Positions 36,503-39,347 of a stretch of DNA of 64,000 nucleotides are shown piece after piece. The stretch is from Planctomycetota bacterium (GTDB lineage Bacteria > Planctomycetota > Phycisphaerae > Sedimentisphaerales > Anaerohalosphaeraceae). The position numbers and the translations under genes are program-made. A model generated the notes under the pieces. That model did not search any database, had not been told where the DNA came from, and saw only the letters and a program-made list of their open reading frames with translations. Each line of letters opens with the position of its first letter. The first letter of the stretch is position 1. The stretch lies in assembly GCA_029552545.1 (NCBI GenBank), contig JAKPDO010000006.1, positions 62,001 through 126,000 of the forward strand, given 5' to 3'.

Positions 36503-38296
36503 ATGGTGGACAGAAACATTATCAGCAAGCTCGGTCTGACGGCCGAGGAACTCGAAAAACAAGTCAGTGAAATCTTTACGGATGAGCATGACAAGCTGCT
36601 CGGCGAGGTTCTGGATAAGAATGTGGAAGCCCTCGTGCCGGGCACGATTGTCAAAGGGCGGATTATCACCCAGCTGGGCAATGATGTGATTGTCGAGCTG
36701 GGCCTAAAGAGCGAAGGCATTGTGGATGCTTCGGAATTTGATGACCCCTCGGAGATTCAGCCGGGCAGGGAAATCGAGGTGCTTCTGGAAGAAGTGGATG
36801 CCGAAGGGTCGATTCTGCTGTCCAAGCGGAAGGCCGATCGGATTCGCGGCTGGGAGCATGTGATTACGCATCACAAAGAGGGCGATATTGTCAAGGGAAT
36901 CGTCAGCCGCCGCATCAAAGGCGGTCTGCTGGTGGATATCGGCGTGCCGGTCTTTCTGCCCGCCTCGCAAGTGGACATCCGCAAGCCCGGCGACATCAGC
37001 CGGTTTATCGGGCAGGAAATTGAGTGCAAGATTCTCAAGATTGATACGGAAAACCACAATATTGTTGTGTCCCGCCGCAAGATTATTGAAGAGAATCGGC
37101 AGGCCAACAAGGAAAAGCTGCTGGCGGAACTGGAAGTCGGCCAGCTCCGCAAGGGCGTGGTCAAGAACATCGCCGATTTCGGCGTCTTTATCGATTTGGG
37201 CGGTCTGGACGGCCTGCTGCATATTTCGGATATGAGCTGGGGACGCATCTCTCATCCGTCCGAAATGGTGCAGATGGATCAGGAAATCGAATGCGTGGTG
37301 ATCGGCATCGACCGGCAGGCCGAAAAGGTTTCGCTGGGACTGAAGCAGAAGACCCCCAGCCCGTGGGAAACGGTGGCTCAGCGGTATCCGGTCGGCAGCC
37401 GGGTGAAGGGCACGGTGGTCAATATTATGAATTACGGCGCCTTTGTGCGGCTGGAAGAAGGCGTTGAGGGCCTGATTCATATCAGCGAGATGAGCTGGAC
37501 CAAGCGGATTGCTCATCCGGCGGATATCCTGCAGGTCGGCCAGGAGGTCGAAGTGGCTGTGCTGGACATCAACAAGGACAAGCAGGAGATTTCTCTGGGC
37601 TTAAAGCAGCTGGAAACCAACCCGTGGTCGATTGCCGGCCAGAAGTATCCGGTCGGGACGATTGTGACGACGAAGGTGACCAGTTTGACCAACTACGGGG
37701 CCTTTGTGGAAATCGAGCCGGGCATTGACGGGCTGATTCATATTTCCGACCTGAGCTGGACGAAAAAGTACAACCACCCCGGCGAGTGCCTCCAGAAGGG
37801 CCAGGAAGTCAAGTGTGTGGTGCTCGAAATGGATGAAGAGAAGCATCGCATCTCGCTGGGCGTCAAGCAGCTGACGGAAGACCCGTGGGTTCGGGCGATT
37901 CCGGAAAAGTATATTCCGGGACAGATTGTCCGCGGTGTGGTGACCAAACTGACCAACTTCGGCGTGTTTGTCGAGCTGGAGCCGGATTTGGAGGGCCTGC
38001 TTCATATTTCCGAGCTGTCCGACGAGAAGGTCGAGTCTCCGCAGGATGTCGTCAAGATCGGCGATGTGCTGGAGGTGAAGATTCTTCGGGTGGATACGGA
38101 AGCCCGCAAGATCGGCCTTTCGCTGCGTCGGGTTCGCTGGGCGGCGGAAGACCAGGCGGCTTCTGCCGGCGGCGAAGAGAAGAAATCCGCTCCAGAGAGT
38201 AAACCGGAAACCCCGGCTCGTCGGGGCGGCCTGGACGGCACGCTGATGCCGGGACCGATAAAAATTTCACCGGAAAACAAACAGGAAAACGCCTGA
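36503..38296 (+). CDS. rpsA: 30S ribosomal protein S1
   Basis: A 597-residue RNA-binding protein with six S1/OB repeats at roughly 48-115, 130-200, 215-285, 300-372, 387-459 and 474-546. The central repeats carry the conserved NYGAFV/DFGVFI and GLIHISDMSW/GLLHISEL motifs. It helps mRNA bind the 30S subunit. The C-terminal 45 residues are charged and low in complexity. A strong terminator follows at 38324. Confidence 0.96.
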   Translation: MVDRNIISKLGLTAEELEKQVSEIFTDEHDKLLGEVLDKNVEALVPGTIVKGRIITQLGNDVIVELGLKSEGIVDASEFDDPSEIQPGREIEVLLEEVDAEGSILLSKRKADRIRGWEHVITHHKEGDIVKGIVSRRIKGGLLVDIGVPVFLPASQVDIRKPGDISRFIGQEIECKILKIDTENHNIVVSRRKIIEENRQANKEKLLAELEVGQLRKGVVKNIADFGVFIDLGGLDGLLHISDMSWGRISHPSEMVQMDQEIECVVIGIDRQAEKVSLGLKQKTPSPWETVAQRYPVGSRVKGTVVNIMNYGAFVRLEEGVEGLIHISEMSWTKRIAHPADILQVGQEVEVAVLDINKDKQEISLGLKQLETNPWSIAGQKYPVGTIVTTKVTSLTNYGAFVEIEPGIDGLIHISDLSWTKKYNHPGECLQKGQEVKCVVLEMDEEKHRISLGVKQLTEDPWVRAIPEKYIPGQIVRGVVTKLTNFGVFVELEPDLEGLLHISELSDEKVESPQDVVKIGDVLEVKILRVDTEARKIGLSLRRVRWAAEDQAASAGGEEKKSAPESKPETPARRGGLDGTLMPGPIKISPENKQENA

Positions 38297-38323
38297 TTAA
38301 GCAGCCCATTTTTGCAGGACTTC

Positions 38324-38359
38324 AAACGCCGCGTTCCTATAAGGACGCGGCGTTTTTTT
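38324..38359 (+). terminator. Intrinsic terminator after rpsA
   Basis: AAACGCCGCGT (38324-38334) pairs perfectly with ACGCGGCGTTT (38345-38355); a run of seven T ends at 38359. It separates rpsA from the sigma-factor leader. Confidence 0.93.
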
Positions 38360-38378
38360 GTTTTTTCGATTTCACAGG

Positions 38379-38516
38379 GGCTGAAAGAAGAGATTAAGGA
38401 GAGGGGGGTTTTCAGCCGATAACCCATCAGAATGTTGTGTCTGTCCTGACACAAACGTCCGAAAACAACAGCGTTTTTGGTGTGCTGCAAAACCGTCCGT
38501 TCCCGATGGGTTCGGC
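38379..38516 (+). promoter_or_regulatory. Structured RNA leader of the sigma-factor gene (candidate cis-regulatory RNA)
   Basis: P1 is a 12-bp stem: GCCGA (38415-38419) with TCGGC (38512-38516), then ACCCATC (38422-38428) with GATGGGT (38505-38511), with a two-base bulge at 38420-38421. It encloses P2, TTGTGTC (38435-38441) with GACACAA (38448-38454), and P3, CCGAAAAC (38459-38466) with GTTTTTGG (38473-38480, one G-U pair). Upstream, GGCTGAAA (38379-38386) can pair with TTTCAGCC (38410-38417), which shares bases 38415-38417 with P1, so two folds may compete. The ribosome-binding AGGAG lies just after P1. Confidence 0.55.
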
Positions 38517-38537
38517 CAAAACAGGAGAAAAACCGAA

Positions 38538-39347
38538 ATGGCTTTTGATATTACCATTAAAGACTATCTGAAGGAAATTGATGAGGCCCCGCTGCTCAGC
38601 TGGGAGGAGGAAAAGTCGCTGGCCAAGGCAATTATTGAAAACAATGACCCCGAAGCCCGCGACCGGCTGGTTCGTTCCAACCTTCGGCTGGTGGTCAATA
38701 TTGCCAAGCGGTTTTCCGGACGCGGAATGACGCTGGGGGACCTGATTGAGGAGGGCAATCTGGGGTTATTGCGGGCGGTGGATACCTTTGACCCGGAGCA
38801 TAAGGTGCGGTTCAGCACCTATGCGGCCTGGTGGATTAAGCAGGCCATCAAGCGGGCGATTCTGAACAACGCCCAGCCGATTCATATTCCTACCTATATG
38901 GTGGAATTGATTAATCAGTGGCGCCAGACCTATGCGGAGATGGAGCTGAAGCTGGGCCGCACCGTCAGTCTGGAAGAAATGGCCGGGGCGATGAAGGTAC
39001 CGATTCGCAAGGCCAAAGCCATTCAGGATATTGTCTCGGTGGTGGAGGCCGGCTTTCAATATGACAATCCGGAGGGCAATGCGGGGCTCGAGGAGGCCAT
39101 CGAAGATGATAAGGTATCACTGCCGGATGATGAAATCGGCGGCGAGGAAGAACTTTGTCAGGCCCTTGAACTGCTGGAAGAGATTGACCCGCGGGAGGCC
39201 GAGGTGCTTCGTCTGCGGTTTGGATTGAATGGGCAGGAGCCGCTGACCCTCAAGCAAATCGGCGAAAAGCTCGGGCTGACGCGCGAGCGGGTTCGGCAGA
39301 TTCAGCGAAGCGGTCTGGCAAAGCTGAACGAACTGATGACCCGTTAA
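38538..39347 (+). CDS. RNA polymerase sigma-70 family factor (RpoD/SigA-like, short form)
   Basis: A 269-residue sigma factor with regions 1.2 (DYLKEIDEAPLLSWEEE), 2 (LRLVVNIAKRFSGRGM, DLIEEGNLGLLRAVDTFD, FSTYAAWWIKQAIKRAI), 3 and 4 (REAEVLRLRFGL, GLTRERVRQIQRSGLAKL). It lacks region 1.1, so it is either the main vegetative factor of a short-sigma lineage or a group 2 paralogue. AGGAG lies 11 bases before ATG 38538. The long structured leader suggests regulated expression. It is monocistronic, with terminators on both sides (38324 and 39369). Confidence 0.93.
   Translation: MAFDITIKDYLKEIDEAPLLSWEEEKSLAKAIIENNDPEARDRLVRSNLRLVVNIAKRFSGRGMTLGDLIEEGNLGLLRAVDTFDPEHKVRFSTYAAWWIKQAIKRAILNNAQPIHIPTYMVELINQWRQTYAEMELKLGRTVSLEEMAGAMKVPIRKAKAIQDIVSVVEAGFQYDNPEGNAGLEEAIEDDKVSLPDDEIGGEEELCQALELLEEIDPREAEVLRLRFGLNGQEPLTLKQIGEKLGLTRERVRQIQRSGLAKLNELMTR

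Follow-up and report, generated by a model that had tools for sequence, protein, structure and literature searches.

A conserved FliA/WhiG-type promoter probably places an RpoS-like sigma factor gene of planctomycetes under a self-activating WhiG-like sigma factor

In one order of planctomycetes, a WhiG-like sigma factor appears to activate its own gene and also to drive an RpoS-like group-2 sigma factor gene by way of a conserved promoter, to which a 5′ leader is added; a probability of roughly 80% is given to this reading. On this reading, what seemed to be an RNA switch becomes a transcription circuit open to testing, and the locus an example of a conserved promoter posing as RNA structure. 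The WhiG-like factor, kept without flagella beside genes for a MinD-like ATPase and a diguanylate cyclase, would thus stand at the head of a predicted sigma hierarchy in a group for which few regulatory data exist; no description of such a WhiG-like to group-2 circuit was found in the literature searched, most subscription journals being outside the reach of that search. What was computed directly is the conserved pattern of the promoter and how widely it is distributed, its occurrence at the gene of the WhiG-like factor, and the excess of hairpin formation in the leaders.

The window, that is, the whole stretch of 64,000 nt that was analysed, contains the following features around the group-2 sigma gene (P1 is the closing stem proposed in the initial annotation of this DNA):

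36503–38296, plus strand: rpsA (30S ribosomal protein S1), the upstream gene; NCBIfam TIGR00717, over cut-off
38324–38365, plus strand: intrinsic terminator of rpsA, a stem at 38324–38355 and then a T-rich tail; terminator scan, inverted repeat I2
38394–38398, plus strand: putative −35 box TTAAG of the FliA/WhiG-type promoter; TAA 18–19 nt 5′ of CGATA in 28/30 and 49/54 leaders
38415–38422, plus strand: putative −10 box GCCGATAA, the 5′ end of P1; conserved in the same leaders and matching the published flagellar/WhiG consensus
38428–38431, plus strand: predicted transcription start, from the spacing to the −10 box
38435–38454, plus strand: 5′-end hairpin (7-bp stem), conserved in kind while its sequence varies
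38457–38465, plus strand: GTCCGAAAA, the genus form of the GUCCNAUAA element, opening the 8-bp hairpin (38459–38480); GTCCGA invariant in 6/6 genus leaders, together with the element statistics given below
38523–38527, plus strand: Shine-Dalgarno box AGGAG, from the sequence
38538–39347, plus strand: group-2, RpoS-like sigma factor gene (269 aa, ATG at 38538); Pfam regions 1.2, 2, 3 and 4

The best NCBIfam match of the encoded sigma factor is RpoS (TIGR02394), with 247.8 bits under a cut-off of 378.7. A separate RpoD-like protein of 664 aa is encoded elsewhere in the same genome, and the gene at 38538 is therefore taken as a group-2 sigma gene. Two points of the initial annotation, a terminator isolating the region on its 5′ side and an end of the region shortly before AGGAG, agree with the terminator scan and with the position of the Shine-Dalgarno box. 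The rpsA terminator would shield the promoter of the group-2 sigma gene from upstream read-through; the promoter is retained where no rpsA match lies within 1500 nt upstream (L002, L003, L005 and L006).

FliA and WhiG promoters have the common published consensus TAAA / GCCGATAA, according to the available text of PMC8325347, and the E. coli FliA sites given in the accessible part of PMC4183435 consist of TAAA, 15 nt and GCCGATAA. The window holds TAAG, 16 nt and GCCGATAA at 38395–38422, with a spacer one base longer than that of most E. coli FliA sites. A candidate cognate sigma factor is also encoded, three proteins of the genome (G000) scoring over the TIGR02479 cut-off, and flagellin genes of the same genomes are preceded by such sites in 18 of the 28 loci examined (28 of 30 were looked at). 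A sigma-70 type promoter scan of 38200–38600 found none. A second promoter of ECF or RpoS-like type at GTCC was considered and rejected, since the aligned leaders have, by eye, no fixed −35.

Orthologues of the group-2 sigma factor were sought in 40 related genomes and are present in 34; 30 loci were compared. Their aligned upstream regions carry TTAA(G/C) or CTAAAC followed, 18 or 19 nt from TAA, by CGATA, mostly as GCCGATA. The pattern TAA.{18,19}CGATA occurs in 28 of the 30 leaders (shuffle mean 0.28, maximum 2; opposite strand 0), and L028 and L029, the only leaders that lack it, carry variants of the site with one letter changed. From 88 further genomes of the order with the gene, 60 were taken (the first 40 in listing order, the last 20 hand-picked over families) and six already seen were dropped; in the remaining 54 the pattern was found 49 times (shuffle mean 0.63, maximum 3; opposite strand 1, reversed 0), being absent or degenerate in five leaders, one of which is only 152 nt long. 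It is also present in 13 of 13 named-record loci (L045–L056 and L062), which were grouped for their likeness and defined as a group only after the site had been noticed; among 67 loci of more distant Phycisphaerae it occurs once. When the site was picked by score in a set of 41 leaders (L046 and L047 dropped, their leaders being the same as those of L013 and L019; the unpicked counts are those of the 30- and 54-leader sets), CGATA was found in 40 and a G two places 5′ of it in 35, and the −35 to −10 spacer is 15 or 16 nt in the family. Across the genome, the motif by itself is not in excess: TAAN{15,16}GCCGATA has 10 matches in the window's own genome versus 20 for the reversed pattern; this form of the motif missed the window's own site because the spacer there is longer. 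Taken together, the conserved element in the leader of the group-2 sigma gene is mainly, as judged from its letters and spacing, a start signal, namely a FliA/WhiG-type promoter.

The same stretch had been described as a leader controlled by competing RNA stems, and the stems do exist in the sequence: an upstream competitor (GGCTGAAA 38379–38386 with TTTCAGCC 38410–38417), P1 with 12 pairs and a 2-nt bulge (GCCG 38415–38418 plus AACCCATC 38421–38428 with GATGGGTTCGGC 38505–38516), a 7-bp hairpin (TTGTGTC 38435–38441 with GACACAA 38448–38454) and an 8-bp hairpin (CCGAAAAC 38459–38466 with GTTTTTGG 38473–38480). Such a switch is nevertheless very improbable. The z-score of −2.06 for the chosen stretch 38379–38516 speaks in its favour (6 of 200 shuffles fold as well, and the minimum-energy fold is without P1), but the values are −1.28 for 38360–38537 and an ordinary −0.70 for the predicted transcript 38429–38537 (42 of 200 shuffles as good); the stems of 38379–38516 exceed chance only marginally, and P1 is the minimum-energy fold only when the RNA is set to begin at 38415. 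Moreover, the pairing partners overlap the conserved promoter, the −35/−10 pair underneath the 5′ strands of the stems having been missed in the initial annotation: the 5′ strand of P1 (38415–38418 plus 38421–38428) is the −10 box with the bases to about +1, and the whole competitor stem (38379–38386 with 38410–38417) is upstream of where transcription is predicted to start. As these 5′ strands lie in or upstream of the region from −10 to about +1, the transcript of the promoter could form neither P1 nor the competitor.

Six leaders of the genus lend no specific support to P1 and the two hairpins by compensatory changes: 62.7% of the cells pair in the given structure, and nine pairs are changed on both sides as given versus ten after the partners are slid by one column (the upstream competitor stem lies outside this counted alignment and was compared by eye only). 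The consensus fold of the alignment (−2.69 kcal/mol) is without the claimed stems; invariant or nearly so are TTAA...CGATA, GTCCGA and the Shine-Dalgarno box. Control by competing stems is unsupported, given the overlap with the promoter, the missing pair support and the ordinary folding of the predicted transcript.

Of 40 relatives, 36 encode a protein of the FliA/WhiG family that scores over cut-off. A WhiG-like paralogue of about 250–270 bits, here called sigma A, occurs in 35 of 40 (in G000 at C7:240672-241337), while a second, lower-scoring set of the family is found mainly in flagellin-bearing genomes. Sigma A reaches 264–266 bits with the NCBIfam WhiG model (NF004935), under the cut-off of 343, and belongs to the subfamily FliA_WhiG; by these scores it is WhiG-like and is not classed as WhiG. 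Both sigma factors are encoded in 32 of 40 genomes, neither in three (G026, G031 and G035), sigma A only in three and the group-2 factor only in two, one of which is 68% complete; the Fisher p of this co-occurrence is 0.018, for genomes that are not independent and uncorrected for kinship.

The pattern is also present upstream of sigma A, in 29 of 36 regions (shuffle 0.38, maximum 2), adjoining the gene in 27. A sequence-only model built from 24 group-2 sigma promoters and scanned over seven whole genomes gave 21 matches at E<=5. Three of these are group-2 sigma promoters, all in the training set; four precede sigma A (G000, G003, G010 and G030), which is outside the training set; further ones precede, by eye, two STAS-domain-like proteins, pseudopilin-like, Cas1-like and TonB-receptor-like proteins and others, and some are without a clear adjacent gene. 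The match before the Cas1-like frame lies 35 nt from it, by eye (L208, G000:C17:4334-4366), and might reflect a sigma-controlled CRISPR adaptation gene or chance.

The sigma A gene follows genes for a MinD/FlhG-like ATPase, a small MerR-like protein and a protein of about 157 aa with no Pfam match, and lies near a GAF-GGDEF diguanylate cyclase gene (L185–L191). These neighbours were identified by domain matches at one locus (L186:2598-6683, G034: GAF-GGDEF protein, small MerR-like protein, unannotated protein of about 157 aa, MinD-like ATPase), and similar frames were recognized by eye at the others. The MinD/MerR/GGDEF neighbourhood is retained in flagellin-less genomes.

Start site, user of the promoter, direction of control and role of the leader are predicted as follows. 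RNA polymerase with a sigma factor of the FliA/WhiG family would recognize TAAG-N16-GCCGATAA and start the mRNA near 38428–38431, where the usual distance from the −10 box of such promoters places it. The likeliest user of the promoter would be sigma A; its own gene being preceded by the same promoter, sigma A would activate first itself and then the group-2 sigma factor, which amounts to a sigma cascade of two steps that includes positive feedback (sigma A to sigma A plus the group-2 sigma). The opening hairpin of the transcript, joined in many relatives by GUCCNAUAA, may modulate its stability, translation or elongation. A sigma cascade in this order of planctomycetes is probable on the comparative evidence.

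It is conceivable that a flagellar FliA paralogue uses the same promoter and that the group-2 sigma factor is part of the motility programme, since flagellin genes carry near-identical sites and G000 has two further sigma factors of the FliA/WhiG family over cut-off. We consider this improbable: flagellin is absent from eight of 40 genomes, and in four of the flagellin-less ones (G020, G029, G030 and G034) the group-2 sigma promoter is kept and sigma A is the sole FliA-family match over cut-off; further, the model scan recovered promoters of sigma A, with no flagellin gene recognized among the matches in the flagellated G000, G003 and G010.

Control by sigma A as proposed resembles the WhiG systems of Rubrobacter and Streptomyces, as far as the available text of PMC8325347 describes them, in the −35/−10 letters, in the WhiG-family sigma factor and in the non-flagellar use of a flagellar-type sigma factor. 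It differs from them in that the −35 here is usually TTAA(G/C) or CTAAAC with a spacer of TAA-N18 or N19, and in that a second sigma gene is the predicted target, the hosts being planctomycetes. E. coli FliA binds the promoter of the operon that encodes it, fliAYZ (site table of PMC4183435), as is proposed for sigma A; unlike FliA, however, sigma A is also kept in genomes without flagellin, and a group-2 sigma gene has a promoter of the same type. In the SigJ to SigC/SigF cascade of Nostoc, one alternative sigma factor likewise turns on others hierarchically, according to the accessible part of PMC6495340, but the promoter there (the J-box) is unrelated, the phylum is another one, and that cascade rests on genetics whereas the present one is deduced.

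The proposal of a structured leader of no described class survives in part: a hairpin at the place of the 7-bp stem is real in the family, and the leader is conserved and looks regulated, while control by competing stems is unsupported. With leaders shorter than 90 nt or containing N excluded, the opening ~38 nt of the predicted mRNA have a mean z of −2.35 (n=32), and of −1.61 in the unseen set (n=43), whereas three control stretches of the leaders give −0.1 to −0.4, and those of the unseen set −0.1 to −0.3. The sequence of this 5′-end hairpin varies freely, and it is often followed, 33–48 nt past CGATA, by GUCCNAUAA. Among the 41 leaders, 22 contain GTCCNATAAA with no more than one of its 9 letters differing (shuffle 0.33, maximum 4; the motif was derived from the same leaders); of the 49 unseen leaders, 17 have the GUCCNAUAA element with no more than one of its 8 letters differing (shuffle 0.47, maximum 2) and eight have it exactly, its orientation being fixed.

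That the 5′-end hairpin and GUCCNAUAA form a genuine RNA leader regulator acting on stability, translation or pausing is compatible with the promoter reading, and we regard it as plausible at somewhat less than even odds. The low z-scores, the recurrence of the element and its fixed orientation point that way; against it, the element is absent from many leaders, no Rfam family matches, and there is no genome-wide excess together with CGATA. The Rfam result, on which the initial annotation, recognizing no described RNA class, had been right, is 0 matches at the gathering score in the window and 0 in the loci of 20 relatives, with only chance-level matches in 38200–38700 at a permissive E-value. 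The genome-wide figure comes from CGATA-N24-40-GTCCNATAA, which was rejected as a regulon marker, having 102 matches in 40 genomes versus 108 for the control (hand sum).

Three leaders of one genus (L007 in G020, L328 in G094 and L329 in G089) have a strong hairpin and a T run directly after the −10 box, with arms that have changed yet still match; such a structure may be a terminator lying within the predicted leader and would then attenuate transcription of the sigma gene. Just 5′ of the Shine-Dalgarno box, four leaders of one family (L022, L026, L049 and L052) carry a second stretch, GAGAGGCTT...GGCNGGGCGGGAG, that looks conserved and resembles a hairpin.

In sigma A leaders, the reverse complement TTATNGGAC is found at 67–83 nt in 23 of the 27 promoter-bearing regions. 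Also compatible with the promoter reading, GTCCNATAA / TTATNGGAC could be a DNA operator for an unknown regulator common to both sigma genes; we consider this a tentative option, somewhat less likely than a leader regulator. It would fit the forward orientation in group-2 leaders and the reverse complement in sigma A leaders, the 79 copies of GTCCGATAA in G000 versus 29–37 expected from Markov models, and the position of some copies next to flagellin and TonB-receptor-like genes. However, long open frames seem to contain most of the 79 copies, and the copies share no wider consensus, which also weakens GTCCGATAA as the mark of a regulon; GTCCCATAA is not in excess (7 versus about 13); and of seven loci one has the element between the genes of the MerR-like and GGDEF proteins.

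A further suggestion is that the matching element in opposite orientation in the leaders of the two cascade sigma factors (GUCCNAUAA after the hairpin in the group-2 mRNA, UUAUNGGAC in the WhiG-like mRNA) lets one mRNA, or an RNA- or DNA-binding factor, couple the two steps on top of the shared self-activating promoter; we regard this as rather unlikely. Pairing of the two mRNAs in trans through GUCCNAUAA / UUAUNGGAC was tried and rejected: the variable base N is compatible in 10 of 19 genomes (hand count) where about eight are expected from composition, and direct pairing is unsupported because this base does not co-vary between the genes. A shared binding factor for GUCCNAUAA and its reverse complement in the sigma A leaders is possible. 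Copies of GTCCGATAA occur on G000:C7 and elsewhere (L251–L327), some of them beside sigma genes too, and at two loci (L168 and L169) the palindrome that GTCCGATAA forms is nearly perfect and A-rich at its centre.
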